From: an uncultured Clostridia bacterium
GTDB taxonomy: Bacteria > Bacillota > Clostridia > Christensenellales > Borkfalkiaceae
Direction: 5' to 3'
Length of the DNA stretch: 64,000 nt
NCBI GenBank assembly: GCA_947632015.1
Contig: CANRNP010000003.1
Span: forward strand, 1-64,000
Part shown: positions 35,006 to 44,371 of the stretch, piece after piece
Layout of the letters: each line of letters starts with the position of its first letter
How positions within the stretch are numbered: the stretch's first letter is position 1
The notes under the pieces: generated by a model
Seen by the model: only the letters and a program-made list of their open reading frames with translations
Database searches by the model: none
Told to the model about the DNA's origin: nothing
Program-made: the position numbers and the translations under genes

Positions 35006-35481
35006 AAAAATGTGTGTTTGCGGGGACGTTCGACCCCTTTACCGTCGGACATGAAGATACCGTCGCCAAGTGCCTTGCGCTGTTCGACGAGATCGTCGTC
35101 GCCGTGGCGGCAAACAAGAGCAAGGCGTGCATGTTTTCGAAGGAGGCGCGCGTGGGAATGATCTCCGCGCTCTACGAAAAGGAGCCGCGGGTAAAAGTTC
35201 TCCTCTGGGAGGGGGTCGTCGCCGACCTTCTCAAAGCGGAAAACACCCCCTTCTATGTGCGCGGCATCCGCAACGCGACCGACTTCGATTACGAAACGTC
35301 CGATTTTTATGCGAGCCGCGATCTGAGCGGGGAGATGATTACCCTCTATATCCCCGCCGAGCAGAAGAATCTGCACGTCAGCTCCACGCTGGTGCGGAAT
35401 TGCATCCTGTTCAAGAAGCCGTTTGAAAATTACGTCCCCCGCGCAATCTACGAATATATCATGAGAGGCGATTATGTTTGA
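35002..35481 (+). CDS. coaD: Pantetheine-phosphate adenylyltransferase
   Basis: AGTFDPFTVGHEDTVAKCLALFDEIVVAVAAN, IPAEQKNLHVSSTLVR. Confidence 0.95.
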   Translation: MKKCVFAGTFDPFTVGHEDTVAKCLALFDEIVVAVAANKSKACMFSKEARVGMISALYEKEPRVKVLLWEGVVADLLKAENTPFYVRGIRNATDFDYETSDFYASRDLSGEMITLYIPAEQKNLHVSSTLVRNCILFKKPFENYVPRAIYEYIMRGDYV

Positions 35482-36499
35482 AAAACAGATCCTGATCCCG
35501 TCGGCGGCGGAGATCATCGCGGAGCGCCCCGTCCCCAAGTCCATCTCCGAGGTCAAGCGGGCGCGCGACAAGCTGGCAACGGACGTCATCACGGGCAAGT
35601 CGGAAAAACTGCTCGTCATCGTCGGTCCGTGTTCGGCGCACGAGCAGGCGCCCGTCCTCGAATATGTCGCCCGCCTCGGAAAACTCAACGAGAAGGTCAA
35701 GGAAAAACTCGTGCTCGTGCCCCGCATCTACACCGCAAAGCCGCGCACGCGGGGCGTCGGCTACAAGGGAATGTTCTCCCAGCCCGACCCTGAGCATAAG
35801 GAAGATACGCTGCTCGGCATCCGCTCCATCCGCGAGTTGCTTTTCCGTGCGATCGAAGAATCGGGGCTCTCGGCGGCGGACGAAATGCTCTATCCCGAAA
35901 ATTACGCCTACGTCGAAGATCTGCTCACCTATGTCGCGATCGGGGCGCGGTCGAGCGAGAACCAGATGCACCGCCTCGTCGCGAGCGGCGTCGAACTTCC
36001 CGTGGGGATCAAAAACCCCATGAGCGGGAGCATTCCCGTCCTCATCAATTCCATCTTCGCGGCGCAGAGCCCGCAGGTATTCAAATATCACGAATGGCAG
36101 GTGCGAACGGGCGGGAACCCGCTTGCGCACGCCGTTTTGCGCGGACGGGTCGATAACTACGGGAACGACATCCCCAACTTCCACTTCGAGACGGTGATGC
36201 AGGTGCTCGAAGGGTACCGCGACGCGGGCGGATTGCAAAACCCCGCCGTCATCATCGACTGCAACCACTCGAATTCGGGCAAGCAATTCCGCCAGCAGAT
36301 CAGGATCGTGGAAGAGGTGATGCAAAACCGCCTCTGCGACAAAGATTTCAAGAAGATCGTAAAAGGGTTCATGATCGAGAGCTTTTTGGTGGAAGGCTGC
36401 CAGAAACACGACATCGTGTACGGGCAGTCCATCACCGATCCCTGCCTCGGCTGGGAGGATACCGAGCGGCTCCTCCTCGATATTGCGGAGAAAGTTTAA
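35474..36499 (+). CDS. Class I 3-deoxy-7-phosphoheptulonate (DAHP) synthase, copy 1
   Basis: IVGPCSAHEQAPVLEYVARL, PRIYTAKPRTRGVGYKGMFSQPDP, IKNPMSGSIPVLINS. Confidence 0.93.
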   Translation: MFEKQILIPSAAEIIAERPVPKSISEVKRARDKLATDVITGKSEKLLVIVGPCSAHEQAPVLEYVARLGKLNEKVKEKLVLVPRIYTAKPRTRGVGYKGMFSQPDPEHKEDTLLGIRSIRELLFRAIEESGLSAADEMLYPENYAYVEDLLTYVAIGARSSENQMHRLVASGVELPVGIKNPMSGSIPVLINSIFAAQSPQVFKYHEWQVRTGGNPLAHAVLRGRVDNYGNDIPNFHFETVMQVLEGYRDAGGLQNPAVIIDCNHSNSGKQFRQQIRIVEEVMQNRLCDKDFKKIVKGFMIESFLVEGCQKHDIVYGQSITDPCLGWEDTERLLLDIAEKV

Positions 36500-36510
36500 C
36501 GGAGCAAGAA

Positions 36511-37539
36511 ATGTTTATCAAAAGACAGGCGATCCCTTCGCCCGAAGAAATCAAAGCCGAACAACCCCTGCCCGCTTCCCTTGCGGCGGTCAAGCGGGCG
36601 CGCGACGAACTCGCAAAGGACGTCATATCGGGCAGCTCGGAAAAACTGCTCGTCATCGTCGGTCCGTGTTCGGCGCACGAGCCCGCGCCCGTCCTCGAAT
36701 ATGTCGCCCGCCTCGGCAAATTGCAGGAACGGGTGAAGGAAAAACTCGTGCTCGTGCCGCGCATTTACACCAACAAGCCGCGCACGAAAGGGGTGGGCTA
36801 TAAGGGAATGTTCTCCCAGCCCGACCCCGAAAACAAAGAGGACATCTTAAAGGGGATCCGCACCATCCGCGCGCTCCATTTGCGCGCCATCGAACTTTCG
36901 GGGCTCTCGGCGGCGGACGAGATGCTCTATCCCGAAAATTACGCTTATCTCGAAGATCTGCTCACCTACAACGCGGTGGGGGCGCGGTCGAGCGAGAACC
37001 AGCTCCACCGCCTCGTCGCGAGCGGGATCGATCTTCCCGTCGGGATCAAGAACCCCATGAGCGGGAGCATTCCCGTCCTCATGAACTCCATCTATGCGGC
37101 GCAGAGCCCGCAGGTATTCAAATATCACGAATGGCAGGTGGAGACGAACGGCAACCCCTTCGCGCATGCGGTTTTGCGCGGCAGGGTGGATAATTACGGG
37201 AACGACATCCCGAATTATCATTACGAAACGGTGATGCAGGTGCTCGAAGGGTACCGCAGCACCGAGGGCGGGCTGAAAAATCCCGCCGTCATCATCGACG
37301 CGAACCATTCGAATTCGGGCAAGCAATTCCGCCAGCAGATCAGGATCGTGGAAGAGGTGATGCAGGATTGCAGATACGACAGGGACTTCAAGAGGGTGGT
37401 CAAAGGCTTTATGATCGAGAGTTTTTTGGTGGAAGGCTGCCAGAAGCACGATATTGTGTACGGGCAGTCCATCACCGATCCCTGTCTCGGTTGGGAGGAT
37501 ACCGAACGGCTCCTCCTCGATATCGCGGAGAAAGTATAA
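36511..37539 (+). CDS. Class I DAHP synthase, copy 2 (tandem paralogue)
   Basis: Highly similar to copy 1 along full length; IVGPCSAHEPAPVLEYVARL, GVGYKGMFSQPDPENKED. Confidence 0.93.
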   Translation: MFIKRQAIPSPEEIKAEQPLPASLAAVKRARDELAKDVISGSSEKLLVIVGPCSAHEPAPVLEYVARLGKLQERVKEKLVLVPRIYTNKPRTKGVGYKGMFSQPDPENKEDILKGIRTIRALHLRAIELSGLSAADEMLYPENYAYLEDLLTYNAVGARSSENQLHRLVASGIDLPVGIKNPMSGSIPVLMNSIYAAQSPQVFKYHEWQVETNGNPFAHAVLRGRVDNYGNDIPNYHYETVMQVLEGYRSTEGGLKNPAVIIDANHSNSGKQFRQQIRIVEEVMQDCRYDRDFKRVVKGFMIESFLVEGCQKHDIVYGQSITDPCLGWEDTERLLLDIAEKV

Positions 37540-37540
37540 T

Positions 37541-38338
37541 ATGAGCGGGATCGTCAGCTGCCTCGGACCTTCGGGAAGTTATTCCGAATGCGCCGCCGAG
37601 AGAATGTGCGAAGGATATACCGTCCGCCTTTGCCATAATTTTTCGGAGACGGTGAAAAAACTTTTGTCGGGGGAAGCGGACTTTGCCGTTTTGCCCGTGG
37701 AAAACAGCCTCAACGGCGGAGTTTCCGAATGCCTCGATCTGCTCGATTCGGAAAACATCTTCGGCGTGAGGGAGGAATTGCTCCTCATCGACCACCGCCT
37801 TGCACTGTGCGAGGGGGCGCGGATGGAGGACATCCGCACCGTCTGTTCGCACGAGCAGGCGATCGGGCAATGCGCGGAGTTTCTCGCCGCCCGTTTCCCC
37901 TGCGCCCGTCTTGTGAAAACGGCGTCTACGGCGGAAAGTCTCGATCGGCTCGACGCCACGACGGCGGGGATCGTCGGCTCGCACGTCTCGCGGAAGGGGA
38001 TCGTCCTCTCCGAGGAGAACATCGCGGACAACAAGGGGAATTACACCCGTTTTTTACTCGTCGAGCGGCAGGGGAAATTGCCCGAAAAGAGCGTCATGGT
38101 GTTTCTTTCGGCGGTCCTCGCCCATAAACCGGGCGCGCTCGTCAATCTTTTGAAGATCTTCCAGCGTTACAGCCTCAACCTCACCCGCATCCAGTCCCGC
38201 CCCGTCAAGGAGGAATTCGGGCAATACCGCTTTTTCATCGAGATCGCGGGCGACATCGGGAACGAGCGGGTGAAAACGGCGCTCGCGGAAGCGAAAAAAG
38301 TGTGCGCGAGCTTCAAATTGCTCGGCGCTTATAATTAG
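37541..38338 (+). CDS. pheA: Prephenate dehydratase with ACT domain
   Basis: CLGPSGSYSECAAERM, FAVLPVENSLNGGVSECLDLL, NYTRFLLVER, C-terminal ACT HKPGALVNLLKIFQRYSLNLTRIQSRP. Confidence 0.93.
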   Translation: MSGIVSCLGPSGSYSECAAERMCEGYTVRLCHNFSETVKKLLSGEADFAVLPVENSLNGGVSECLDLLDSENIFGVREELLLIDHRLALCEGARMEDIRTVCSHEQAIGQCAEFLAARFPCARLVKTASTAESLDRLDATTAGIVGSHVSRKGIVLSEENIADNKGNYTRFLLVERQGKLPEKSVMVFLSAVLAHKPGALVNLLKIFQRYSLNLTRIQSRPVKEEFGQYRFFIEIAGDIGNERVKTALAEAKKVCASFKLLGAYN

Positions 38339-39869: not shown

Positions 39870-39898
39870 CGACCGTGAGAGCCACAAGGAGCGAAGGT

Positions 39899-41476
39899 AT
39901 GTTACAGGTCATCGGTGTCAGTCTGCAATACGGCAGCAAAAAATTGTTTGAGGACGTCAACTTAAAATTTACCGCGGGGAACTGCTACGGCATCATCGGC
40001 GCGAACGGCGCGGGGAAGTCCACCTTCCTCAAAGTGCTCTCCGGGGAGATCGAACCGAATAAGGGGGAAGTCGTCCTCGGCAAGAACGAGCGCATGTCCG
40101 TGCTCGCGCAAAACCAGAACAAATACGACGGCGAGACCGTGCTCCGCACCGTGATGCTCGGACACAGGCGGCTCGTGGAGATCATGGACGAGAAGGACGC
40201 GCTCTATGCCCATGCCGAGTTTACCGAGGAGGACGGCGTGCGCGCCTCCGAACTTGAAAGCGAGTTCGCCGAGCTCGGCGGCTGGGAAGCGGAGAGCGAA
40301 GCGGAGACCCTTCTCAACGAGCTCGACATCGGGAGCGAGTACTATTACACCCTCATGGGGGAGATGGACGCCAAGCAGAAGGTGAAAGTGCTTCTCGCGC
40401 AGGCGCTCTTCGGCGATCCCGACGTGCTTCTTTTGGATGAGCCCACCAACAATCTCGACCTCAAAACGGTGCGCTGGCTCGAAAATTATCTTCTCGACTT
40501 CGAGAATACCATCATCATCGTCTCCCACAACCGCCACTTTCTCAATAAAGTCTGCACGCACATCTGCGACGTAGACTTCGGCAAGATCAATCTCTTCCTC
40601 GGCAACTACGACTTTTGGTACCAGACTTCCCAGCTCATGGCGCGCCAGCAGCGGGACGCCGACAAGAAGGCGGAGCAGCGCGCCGCCGAGCTGAGGGACT
40701 TCATCGCGCGCTTCGCGGCGAACGCGAGCAAATCGCGGCAGGCGACGAGCAGGAAAAAGGAGCTCGAAAAACTCACGATCTCCGATTTCAAGCCCTCTCT
40801 CCGCAAATATCCCTTCATCGAATTCAAGTACGAGCGGGAGATCGGCAACGACATCCTCATGGTGGAAAACCTCACCAAGAAGGGGTTTTTCGAAAACGTC
40901 TCCTTTACGGTACAGCGGGGAGATAAGATCGGGATCCTGTGCGATAAATCTACCGCCGTCACCATGCTCTACGATATTTTAACGGGCAAGCAGGAGCCCG
41001 ACGCGGGCACGGTGAAGTGGGGAAAGACGATCAATTATTCCTATTATCCCCTCGATAACGGGGAATTCTTCGACGGATGCACCCTCACCCTCGTGCAGTG
41101 GCTCTCGCAGTTCTCCAAGGACCATTACGAGGAATATCTGCGCGGCTGGCTGGGACGGATGCTCTTTTCGGGCGAGGAAGCGCTCAAAGAGGCGAGGGTC
41201 CTTTCGGGCGGCGAAAAGGTACGGTGCATGCTCGCAAAAATGATGCTCGAAGGGGGAAACTTCCTCATCTTCGACGAGCCCACCAACCACCTCGACTTGG
41301 AGAGCATCACCTCCCTCAACAACGGGCTCACGGCGTTCAAGGGGTGCCTTCTCATGACCTCGCACGACCAGGAGCTCATGAACACGGTGTGCAACCGCAT
41401 CATCGTTTTGAGCGGCACGAAGGTGTACGATAAGTCGATCACGTTCGACGACTATCTGGACAGCATCAGCGGCTGA
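39899..41476 (+). CDS. ABC-F family ATPase with degenerate second Walker A
   Basis: GANGAGKSTFLKVLSGE, LLLDEPTNNLDL; second half GILCDKSTAVTMLYDILTGK, LSGGEKVRCMLAKMML, IFDEPTNHLDLE; no TM segments. Confidence 0.93.
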   Translation: MLQVIGVSLQYGSKKLFEDVNLKFTAGNCYGIIGANGAGKSTFLKVLSGEIEPNKGEVVLGKNERMSVLAQNQNKYDGETVLRTVMLGHRRLVEIMDEKDALYAHAEFTEEDGVRASELESEFAELGGWEAESEAETLLNELDIGSEYYYTLMGEMDAKQKVKVLLAQALFGDPDVLLLDEPTNNLDLKTVRWLENYLLDFENTIIIVSHNRHFLNKVCTHICDVDFGKINLFLGNYDFWYQTSQLMARQQRDADKKAEQRAAELRDFIARFAANASKSRQATSRKKELEKLTISDFKPSLRKYPFIEFKYEREIGNDILMVENLTKKGFFENVSFTVQRGDKIGILCDKSTAVTMLYDILTGKQEPDAGTVKWGKTINYSYYPLDNGEFFDGCTLTLVQWLSQFSKDHYEEYLRGWLGRMLFSGEEALKEARVLSGGEKVRCMLAKMMLEGGNFLIFDEPTNHLDLESITSLNNGLTAFKGCLLMTSHDQELMNTVCNRIIVLSGTKVYDKSITFDDYLDSISG

Positions 41477-41543: not shown

Positions 41544-41573
41544 TTGACAACGGGTTTGCACCTGTGATAGGAT
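41544..41573 (+). promoter_or_regulatory. Promoter of metNIQ leader
   Basis: TTGACA (41544-49)-N18-TAGGAT (41568-73) with TGA extended -10. Confidence 0.5.
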
Positions 41574-41579
41574 AAAATC

Positions 41580-41657
41580 ATGAAACATACGAATTCCCAC
41601 AATTACATGTACATGCCGATGAACCGAGCAGAAATGCGCGGGTTTTCGGCGTTGTAA
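41580..41657 (+). CDS. Met-rich leader peptide MKHTNSHNYMYMPMNRAEMRGFSAL (25 aa) upstream of metNIQ
   Basis: ATG..TAA ORF in the leader; Met at codons 1, 10, 12, 14, 19; immediately followed by terminator hairpin. Confidence 0.65.
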   Translation: MKHTNSHNYMYMPMNRAEMRGFSAL

Positions 41658-41679
41658 AAAAACCGGAACTTGTACATCT

Positions 41680-41711
41680 CCGCTCGGAACTTTCTTCCGG
41701 GCGGTTTTTTT
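41680..41711 (+). terminator. Attenuator-type intrinsic terminator in metNIQ leader
   Basis: CCGCTCGGAA-CTTTC-TTCCGGGCGG (10-bp stem with one G-U pair) + TTTTTTT, 32 nt before metN ATG. Confidence 0.85.
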
Positions 41712-41743
41712 ATGCCGATAACCTTTATCCAAAAGGAGACTTC

Positions 41744-42736
41744 ATGATAGCGCTCAAAAACTTAACGAAAATTTATCCCTCGAAAACGGGAGAGACGGTC
41801 GCCCTCGAAAACGTCGATCTCGAAATCCCCGACGGCTCCGTGTTCGGCGTCATCGGGCTGTCGGGAGCGGGGAAGAGCACCTTGGTCCGCTGCCTCAACC
41901 TGCTCGAAAAGCCCACGCGCGGGCAGGTGATCATCGACGGCGAGGACGTTACCGCCCTTTCGGGGAAGCGCCTCCGCGCGCTCCGCCGCTCCGTCGGCAT
42001 GATCTTCCAGAGCTTCAATCTGCTCGAACAGCGCACGGCGGCGGCGAACGTCCGCTTCCCCCTCGAGCTCGGCAAGATCCCCCGCGAAGAGGCGAAACGC
42101 AGGGTGGGGGAGCTCCTTTCCCTCGTGGGGCTCTCGGAGAAGGCGGATTTCTACCCTTCGCAACTTTCGGGCGGGCAAAAACAGCGGGTCGCCATCGCGA
42201 GAGCGCTCGCCACGGAGCCCAAATATCTTCTCTGCGACGAGGCGACGAGCGCGCTCGACCCCGCCACGACCGAATCCGTTCTGCAACTGCTCAAAAAGAT
42301 TAACCGCGAGCTTGGGGTAACGATCGTCGTCATCACCCACGAAATGAAGGTGGTGGAGAGCGTCTGCACCCACGTCGCCGTACTCGATCAGAGCCGCGTC
42401 GCCGAGGCGGGCAAAGTAGAGGACATCTTCTCCTTCCCGCAGTCGGAGATCGCAAAACGGCTCATTCTGCCCGACCTCATCCGCTCCGTCGCGGGGAGCG
42501 GGAAAGGGAACCAACTGCGGCTCGTCTTTCACGGGGACGCGAGCGATACGCCCGTCATTTCGGGGCTTGCTTCGGAATGCGGCGTGCCCGCGAACATCCT
42601 CTTTGCCGATACCCGCCGTATCGACGGAAAGACCTTCGGGCACATGGTGATCGAGCTCCCCGAAAACGAAGCGCAGATCGCCGCCGCCAAACAGTACCTC
42701 ACCTCGAAGAGCGTGACCTTTAAGGAGGAAATTTAA
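41744..42736 (+). CDS. metN: Methionine ABC transporter ATP-binding protein
   Basis: [65 protein letters not shown]-terminal NIL-like domain. Confidence 0.94.
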   Translation: MIALKNLTKIYPSKTGETVALENVDLEIPDGSVFGVIGLSGAGKSTLVRCLNLLEKPTRGQVIIDGEDVTALSGKRLRALRRSVGMIFQSFNLLEQRTAAANVRFPLELGKIPREEAKRRVGELLSLVGLSEKADFYPSQLSGGQKQRVAIARALATEPKYLLCDEATSALDPATTESVLQLLKKINRELGVTIVVITHEMKVVESVCTHVAVLDQSRVAEAGKVEDIFSFPQSEIAKRLILPDLIRSVAGSGKGNQLRLVFHGDASDTPVISGLASECGVPANILFADTRRIDGKTFGHMVIELPENEAQIAAAKQYLTSKSVTFKEEI

Positions 42737-42737
42737 C

Positions 42738-43469
42738 GTGAACAGTCTGCTTTTATCCCGCCTCTTTACCCAGCTTGCCGAGACGAACGCCTTCCCCCTC
42801 GCGGTGTGGGAGACGGTCTATCTTACCTTCGCCTCGGCGGCGATTGCCTATCTCGTCGGGCTTCCCCTCGGCGTCATCCTCGCCGTCACCGACCGCGGCG
42901 GCTTAAAGCCCGTGCTCTGGCTGAATAAAACGTTGGGCATCATCGTCAACATCTTCCGTAGCATTCCCTTCATCATCCTCATGGTGGCGCTCATTCCCGT
43001 CTCCCGCGCGCTCCTCGGCACGAGCATCGGCAACGGGGCGATGATCTTCATGCTCGTCGTCGCCGCCGCGCCTTATGTCTCGCGCATGGTGGAATCCTCT
43101 TTGAAAGAGGTGGACGCGGGGGTCGTGGAGGCGGCAAAGTCGATGGGGGCGAGCACCATCCAGATCATTTTGAAGGTCTATCTGCCCGAAGCGAAGCCTT
43201 CCCTTCTCGTCGGCGCCGTCATTTCCACGGTCACCATTTTAGGGTATTCGGCAATGGCGGGCACGATCGCGGCGGGCGGCTTGGGCGCACTTGCCGTCAC
43301 GCAGGCGAGACCTTCCAACGCGCAGGACGTCATCTGGCTGTGCGTTCTGCTCATCGTCATCATCGTGCAGCTCATCCAGGAGGGGGGAATGCTCCTTGCG
43401 ACCCGTACCGACAAGCGCGTGCGCGCAAAGGCGGGACGGTCCAAGAGAGCGAAAACGGAAAAACCGTGA
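42738..43469 (+). CDS. metI: Methionine ABC transporter permease
   Basis: AVWETVYLTFASAAIAYLVGLPLGVILAVTDRGG, NIFRSIPFIILMVALIP, SRMVESSLKEVDAGVVEAAKSMGAS. Confidence 0.93.
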   Translation: MNSLLLSRLFTQLAETNAFPLAVWETVYLTFASAAIAYLVGLPLGVILAVTDRGGLKPVLWLNKTLGIIVNIFRSIPFIILMVALIPVSRALLGTSIGNGAMIFMLVVAAAPYVSRMVESSLKEVDAGVVEAAKSMGASTIQIILKVYLPEAKPSLLVGAVISTVTILGYSAMAGTIAAGGLGALAVTQARPSNAQDVIWLCVLLIVIIVQLIQEGGMLLATRTDKRVRAKAGRSKRAKTEKP

Positions 43470-43531: not shown

Positions 43532-44371
43532 ATGAAAAAATTTTCCCTGCTCGCCGCGCTTGCGGCATCCTGTGTTCTCGCCCTCTCCCTTGCGGGCTGC
43601 GGGCGCACCATCGATTCGGACGACGTCATCAAAGTCGGCGCGAGTCAGACCCCCCACGCCGAGATCCTGAAAGTGGTGGAGGACGACCTCAAAGAGGCGG
43701 GCTACACCCTCGAAATTCAGGTATTCGACGACTATGTCACCCCCAACACCGCCCTCGAAGACGGCAGTATCGACGCGAACTACTTCCAGCACACGCCCTA
43801 TCTCAACACCTTCAACAGCGACTACAAGACCCATCTTGCGGCAGTGGAGAAGATCCATTACGAGCCCTTCGGCGTGTACGGCAAGAACGTCACGAAGGAA
43901 GATTTTGCCGCGAACAAGACGGGCAGGACGATCCTCGTGCCCAACGACGGGAGCAATCTCACCCGCGCGCTGTTCGTCCTCCAAGACGAGGGCTACATCA
44001 CCTTGAAGGACGGGGTCACCGCTTCCTCCGCCCTCACCGTGCAGGACATCGCCGACAGCAAGGGCAACACCGTCAGCCCCGTGCAGGCGGATACGGTCGC
44101 CGCCCAGCTTCAAGAGCAGAAGGACGGGACGATCGCGGTCATCAACGGCAATTATGCGTTGCAGGCGGGGCTGAACGTGAAGGACGCCCTCGCCGTCGAG
44201 AACGCGGAAGGGGACGCGGCGCAGCTGTATGCCAACATCATCGCGGTGAAAAAGGGCAACGAGAACCACGCCAAGATCAAAGCGCTCGTCTCGGCGCTCA
44301 AATCCAAGAAAGTGTACGACTACATCACCGGACATTACGACGGCGCCGTTCTGCCTGTATTCCCGGTATAA
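43532..44371 (+). CDS. metQ: Methionine ABC transporter substrate-binding lipoprotein (NlpA family)
   Basis: Lipobox LSLAGCG; KVGASQTPHAEIL, VFDDYVTPNTALEDGSIDANYFQHTPYL. Confidence 0.94.
   Translation: MKKFSLLAALAASCVLALSLAGCGRTIDSDDVIKVGASQTPHAEILKVVEDDLKEAGYTLEIQVFDDYVTPNTALEDGSIDANYFQHTPYLNTFNSDYKTHLAAVEKIHYEPFGVYGKNVTKEDFAANKTGRTILVPNDGSNLTRALFVLQDEGYITLKDGVTASSALTVQDIADSKGNTVSPVQADTVAAQLQEQKDGTIAVINGNYALQAGLNVKDALAVENAEGDAAQLYANIIAVKKGNENHAKIKALVSALKSKKVYDYITGHYDGAVLPVFPV

Follow-up and report, generated by a model that had tools for sequence, protein, structure and literature searches.

The metNIQ operon of an uncultured Clostridia bacterium raises the question of how a methionine transporter is controlled when neither a SAM riboswitch nor a T-box is found in front of its genes. 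An earlier, sequence-only reading of this DNA proposed that a short open reading frame (ORF) with several Met codons, together with the terminator that follows it, forms a leader-peptide attenuator responding to the supply of Met-tRNA. Having followed this proposal through the whole 64,000-nucleotide stretch (the window) and through related genomes, we conclude that metNIQ is very probably preceded by a methionine-specific, ribosome-mediated transcription attenuator.

Results

A leader ORF, a hairpin and a terminator lie between a promoter and metNIQ

The three transport genes lie on the forward strand in the order metN (41744..42736), encoding an ABC ATPase with a NIL domain (Pfam PF00005 (ABC_tran), 4e-35; PF09383 (NIL), 2e-22), metI (42738..43469), encoding a permease (PF00528 (BPD_transp_1), 3e-22), and metQ (43532..44371), encoding an NlpA-type lipoprotein (PF03180, 1e-66). 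This gene order, and the promoter, 25-codon ORF, hairpin and terminator 5' of it, were all found where the sequence-only reading had placed them. The promoter (41544..41573, forward strand, as are all features below) is of sigma-70 type, with TTGACA (41544-41549), an 18-nt spacer and TAGGAT (41568-41573) preceded by TG, giving 10/12 matches. The ORF (41580..41657) encodes MKHTNSHNYMYMPMNRAEMRGFSAL, with Met at codons 10, 12, 14 and 19, which we number -5, -3, -1 and +4. The first two make up an M-x-M motif (41607..41615; Met(-5) at 41607-41609 and Met(-3) at 41613-41615) that stands outside both of the alternative helices described below. Hairpin P1 (41615..41650), the putative anti-antiterminator, has its core at 41624-41641, a GAAA loop and a lower stem GCCGA/TCGGC (41615-41619/41646-41650). 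The intrinsic terminator (41680..41711) has a 10-bp stem (41680-41704) and a U-tract (41705-41711), and 3' of it stands the Shine-Dalgarno sequence of metN, AGGAG (41734..41738). The predicted fold of the whole leader has a free energy of -44.6 kcal/mol (z = -4.1 versus dinucleotide shuffles). Directly 5' of the leader, on the same strand, is a gene for an ABC-F type protein (two ABC_tran domains plus ABC_tran_Xtn; 39875-41476), and at 35474-38338 the window has two tandem DAHP-synthase-like genes and then a prephenate-dehydratase-like gene, assigned by reading the products.

In the window 6 nt separate the -10 box from the ATG, which puts the predicted transcription start at or adjoining the start codon; the leader peptide thus probably starts on a leaderless message. 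The same spacing is 6-9 nt in 10 leaders of the window type and 18-68 nt in the remaining leaders, and an AGGAG or AAGGAG Shine-Dalgarno sequence stands 5' of the homologous ATG in relatives including L007, L015-L018, L020, L021, L023 and others.

The leader recurs before methionine transport genes

Searched at the DNA level, 101 relatives yielded 8 genomes, besides the window's own, that contain part of the leader or of metN. We also gathered metN loci by MetN protein searches of the family, order and class, which took no account of the leader. The metN-first operons of the family are of two sorts, some with Met T-boxes (genus g39) and others with Met-rich leader ORFs. The layout seen in the window precedes metN in 46 relatives, whose leaders fit M-x-M-x-x-x-[R/Q]-A, with one RRM variant; nearly all of these homologous leaders have a promoter of like type with a 16-18 nt spacer, as well as an intrinsic terminator between leader ORF and metN. 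The leader peptides matched no family in NCBIfam or Pfam. A degenerate pattern, M-x-M-x-x-[S/T/P/A]-R-A-[E/D]-M-R-G, was present in 18 records of the GTDB collection (84,980 genomes), where by our own estimate from the count of fixed bases less than one match would be expected by chance. All 18 matches lie 5' of metN, which is found 129-522 nt downstream, and all are from uncultured Clostridia, mostly from bins titled Lapin (read as rabbit gut).

Beyond these close homologs, a Met-rich leader also stands before metQ in operons that begin with this gene (L097-L100), and Met-rich leaders of different sequence precede metN at L101, L103 and L104, as well as in families f4, f11 and f24 of the order; at family locus L102 no Met-rich leader was found, and locus L065 is cut by the contig end. 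Leaders of unrelated RNA sequence, including those in the L097-L104 range, have only Met codons in common, and distant leaders keep their Met clusters and lose SRAEMRG. Across the class, a Met cluster was seen at 12/67 loci, which are scattered, and three of these come from other genome stretches and may be due to chance.

The relatives also vary in architecture. At seven loci (L019, L028, L077, L078, L079, L080 and L081), two Met leader-plus-terminator units stand in tandem 5' of metN, the second peptide mostly containing MMQM and lacking SRAEMRG (e.g. MNKLFTAVMMQMRTRGLFPTGGLP). Leader and metN are 460-549 nt apart in some relatives versus 164 in the window, and L002, L004 and L006 have several hundred bases of repeat-like sequence between the leader terminator and metN. 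Leaders rich in both Met and Cys (e.g. MTNRCAMRCFMMCACDCPYYCCCAA) occur at f4 loci including L134, L140, L155, L158-L160 and L162 and, in the class, at L183, L190, L196 and L227; f4 leaders are 19.0% Met and 19.4% Cys, and joint sensing of the sulfur amino acids is possible in such leaders.

Met T-boxes take the place of the leader in sister genera

The sequence-only reading had seen neither a SAM riboswitch nor a T-box at the leader, and for this locus it was right. No match in the window reached the Rfam gathering score, and a permissive threshold returned only chance-level hits at the leader (trpB RNA, E 0.31; RefA5, 0.6; VrrA, 8.2). None of the T-box (RF00230) features, Stem I specifier or T-box bulge, was matched in the window, which also has no GGTGG motif, and the covariance model of the SAM-I/S-box riboswitch (RF00162) matched neither the leader nor any other place in its own genome. 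The statement does not extend to the sister genera, in which Met T-boxes do precede metN. Sister loci L022, L025 and L039 match RF00230 at 106-113 bits, and in the T-boxes of these loci and L133 the specifier position reads AUG, so the same gene is there tied to tRNA-Met charging by another device. Met leader and Met T-box thus alternate at the same place before metN. The genome of the window does carry candidate T-boxes elsewhere, one before an apparent pheS (L095, contig C40; specifier UUC) and one before an apparent thrS (L096, contig C26; specifier ACC), both scoring below the Rfam gathering score and with genes named by reading their products.

Two Met codons are nearly invariant

The sequence-only reading had taken Met codons 10, 12, 14 and 19 together as the control cluster. 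Among 35 non-redundant leaders, the first two bear this out, with Met(-3) in 35/35 and Met(-5) in 34/35, and the others do not, with Met(-1) in 4/35 and Met(+4) in 23/35. Neither Met(-5) nor Met(-3) is paired in the P1 core or the antiterminator, and yet both are near-invariant; Met(+4) lies inside the helices and is replaced in 12/35 leaders with pairing retained. Since the pattern by which these leaders were selected itself demanded Met at -5 and -3, independent evidence for the Met codons comes from an order-wide count: an ORF with at least three internal Met codons within 10 codons lies 5' of metN at 70/125 loci versus 1.9% of dinucleotide shuffles, and one with at least four at 31/125 loci versus 0.07%. 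The -3 Met spacing is also present in families f3, f16, f19 and f32, none of which was selected by that spacing.

Elsewhere in the peptide much of the sequence is free to change. Only M-x-M, R, A and G persist across the 35 leaders; S and E vary freely, as do M(+4) and R(+5), codon 0 specifies S, T, P, A, N, H or V (mostly as NCC), and codons 3-5 vary, with the RNA pairs kept throughout. Two further positions stand out: codon -4 (41610-41612 in the window), between the two Met codons, encodes only Arg (CGA/CGC), Tyr (TAC) or Cys (TGC/TGT) in the 35 leaders, and codons +9/+10 (Ala-Val, GCC-GTG) are conserved though they fall outside P1 and the antiterminator.

Mutually exclusive helices are conserved and covary

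An alignment of homologous leaders, which the sequence-only reading had put forward as a check, revealed a conserved Met cluster, a conserved terminator and covarying alternative helices. The hairpin with the GAAA loop that it had drawn at 41615-41650 is conserved as P1: in 33 leaders 225/231 cells are paired, versus 71-132 when slid, with a few compensatory changes (L021, L024, L034, L041, L075). The suggested antiterminator pairing CCGAGC/GCTCGG is likewise real and conserved, but its extent had been underestimated, as the helix is about twice as long, joining strand 1 (CCGAGCAGAAATG, 41624..41636) to strand 2 (CATCTCCGCTCGG, 41675..41687). Strand 1 lies within the ORF, has the same sequence sense as the terminator 3' arm and comprises strand A, the loop and the first part of the P1 descending strand; strand 2 comprises the linker and the terminator 5' arm. 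Antiterminator and terminator share this arm and are mutually exclusive. A third proposed pairing, ATGTACA/TGTACAT, exists in the window and is absent in relatives (L002, CTTGTCTCTC; L005, AAAGCATTTTC), and we discarded it.

Support for the antiterminator is comparative. Paired with their own linkers the leaders give -20.8 kcal/mol, versus -17.95 (sd 0.47) with permuted linkers of other species, and 0/5000 permutations equalled the real value. The antiterminator core has 15 two-sided changes versus 6.9 in shuffles, a number reached by 1/500 shuffles. In L024 all three strands have changed in concert (CCCCAAGC, GTGGGG and GCTTGGG), and the linkers of L016, L036 and L051 have changes that answer those in the loop. 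A generic form of the test, asking only that the segment after the Met cluster pair with the terminator 5' arm, works in f3, f16, f19 and f32 and fails for most f4/f11 leaders (15/38 at p <= 0.05).

In leaders with a 5' untranslated stretch (e.g. L017, L024, L034, L041), pairing of the leader ribosome-binding site with codons +7 to +10 gave -11.2 for own and -9.9 for permuted sequences (p = 0.003), with two control segments not significant, which suggests a third helix there. In the leaderless window type, its place seems to be taken by the P1 lower stem GCCGA/TCGGC.

A ribosome at the M-x-M motif is predicted to leave the antiterminator free

The sequence-only reading had also proposed folding the leader with part of it masked. 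We did so with a static thermodynamic model in which the terminator 3' arm is not yet made and a ribosome footprint of -14 to +11 from the P site is held unpaired. The antiterminator was favored with the ribosome at Met(-5) or Met(-3) and disfavored past them. For the window leader its probability is 0.70 with either codon in the A site (0.60 at -3 if the footprint extends to +14), 0.24 at -1 and at most about 0.12 at codons 0 to +10 (0.03-0.13 at +9/+10), and 0.02 without a ribosome. Across 35 leaders the mean is about 0.8 for codons -5 to -3 and does not exceed 0.11 for codons 0 to +7, the drop coming directly after Met(-3). The off state without a ribosome is clean only in the window leader. 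Averaged over relatives, free RNA lacking the terminator 3' arm favors the antiterminator at equilibrium (0.75), implying that, without translation, the off state relies in them on the kinetics of the hairpins or an additional helix. With a ribosome waiting at its stop codon, the window leader has an antiterminator probability of 0.43-0.64, which would permit the helix, so quick release must be assumed.

The sequence elements, their conservation, the support for the helices and this geometry come from the analysis itself; we infer where transcription starts, that the ORF is translated, and the stalling, termination efficiency and response to methionine. RNA polymerase would transcribe the leader with a ribosome close behind. 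With Met-tRNA plentiful, the ribosome would clear M-x-M and cover the next strand (codons N/S-R-A-E-M), no antiterminator could form, and the terminator would stop transcription. With Met-tRNA scarce, the ribosome would wait with its A site on Met(-5) or Met(-3), blocking the base of P1 and halting just 5' of the antiterminator strand; the strand so freed would pair with the linker and terminator 5' arm, and polymerase would continue past the terminator into metNIQ. In the absence of any initiating ribosome, P1 (in the window together with its lower stem) would hold the strand and let the terminator form.

Other readings of the leader are improbable

The leader could also encode a nascent-chain arrest peptide, M-x-M-x-x-S-R-A-E-M-R-G-x-x-A-V, that stalls the ribosome on a metabolite and so exposes the antiterminator strand. 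The peptide looks strongly conserved in the closest relatives, and a ribosome whose A site holds one of codons +9 to +12, where +9/+10 are often Ala-Val, would also expose the strand on average. Wider sampling tells against this reading, which we consider improbable. The variable residues of the 35 leaders change while pairing is kept, as expected from constraint on the RNA, and distant leaders part with SRAEMRG and hold on to Met; as an arrest motif SRAEMRG thus breaks down. Nor did a ribosome arrested at +9/+10 survive as the on state, as the window leader is not permissive there and GCC-GTG is better explained by its pairing with the leader ribosome-binding site. Looking for peptide conservation independent of RNA pairing, we found it only at the Met codons and in part at +9/+10.

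An even smaller probability attaches to a constitutive terminator, or an attenuator set by the general rate of translation, without methionine specificity. Mask folding does indicate that the antiterminator can form whenever a ribosome is halted 5' of codon -2, for whatever reason; yet in several families every leader has Met at the last permissive positions, Met makes up 14-24% of leader residues, and the device is restricted to the Met transporter and exchanged with Met T-boxes. Least probable of all is a direct RNA sensor, be it an unrecognized riboswitch or a divergent T-box, with the short ORF incidental: it would account for the strong tetraloop hairpin, the mutually exclusive helices and the terminator, and would sit well with the Met T-boxes of sister genera, but besides the Rfam and GGTGG results above, it leaves without reason an open frame with Shine-Dalgarno sites, conserved Met codons that are unpaired, and the fact that leaders of unrelated RNA sequence share Met codons only.

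Discussion

Leader-peptide attenuation by Met-tRNA supply, as the sequence-only reading had it, is the best explanation of the conserved M-x-M, the conserved P1 and the linker-specific antiterminator. The classical attenuators of enteric bacteria (trp, his, leu, thr, phe) have a promoter, an ORF with control codons, a protector hairpin, and an antiterminator and terminator with a common arm, a stalled ribosome leading to read-through; for many other amino acids, such leader peptides are textbook knowledge. The window leader resembles them in its promoter, its control codons for the amino acid of the operon, its protector hairpin and its shared arm. It differs in that the amino acid is Met, in that the antiterminator strand lies inside the ORF directly after the control codons, and in that the loop of the protector hairpin, with part of its descending strand, is drawn into the antiterminator.

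Ordinary leader-peptide attenuation is known in Firmicutes for other amino acids and genes, in the hisS and hisZ leaders of bacilli, those of hisS being exchanged with T-boxes at the same gene (PMC2965389), and in the Leu-rich attenuator of the Staphylococcus aureus ilv operon (PMC5794164). Met T-boxes (RF00230) share with the window leader the gene, in sister genera, and the signal, tRNA-Met charging, but bind tRNA directly and have no ORF. A comparative study of Actinobacteria found no structure to be conserved 5' of methionine operons (PMC1262725). The sequence-only reading knew of no characterized Met attenuator for metNIQ; we too found none characterized, but one had already been predicted, as Streptomyces lividans TK24 has a Met-containing metL leader peptide (MSTTSDRTPATEATTTPGARCMCRRMCAF) 5' of metNIQ (PMC8079986). 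Like the window leader, which is probably leaderless, it is predicted as a leaderless peptide before metNIQ; unlike it, metL came with no intrinsic terminator and no description of helices or comparative support (PMC8079986), and its peptide has no evident sequence similarity to ours. In the open literature, to which our search was confined, we found no other Met leader-peptide attenuator described. As it yielded nothing closer than the metL prediction, we assign the window leader to the leader-peptide attenuators, as a member that reads methionine and has a variant layout.

A more speculative extension, which we regard as unlikely, is that the window-type switch could read the initiator and elongator Met-tRNA pools together, as a two-input Met sensor, and that f4 leaders read Met and Cys jointly, as a sulfur amino acid sensor. 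The two-input idea stems from the ATG at the predicted transcription start, as a leaderless message would need initiator Met-tRNA directly.

This leader thus appears to be a Met attenuator with comparative support at every element, recurring over several families of uncultured gut Clostridia. It offers a testable rule, namely that Met codons stand at exactly the last position where a halted ribosome leaves the antiterminator free, and its alternation with Met T-boxes at one gene would provide a clean natural series in which to follow the replacement of one RNA sensor by another.
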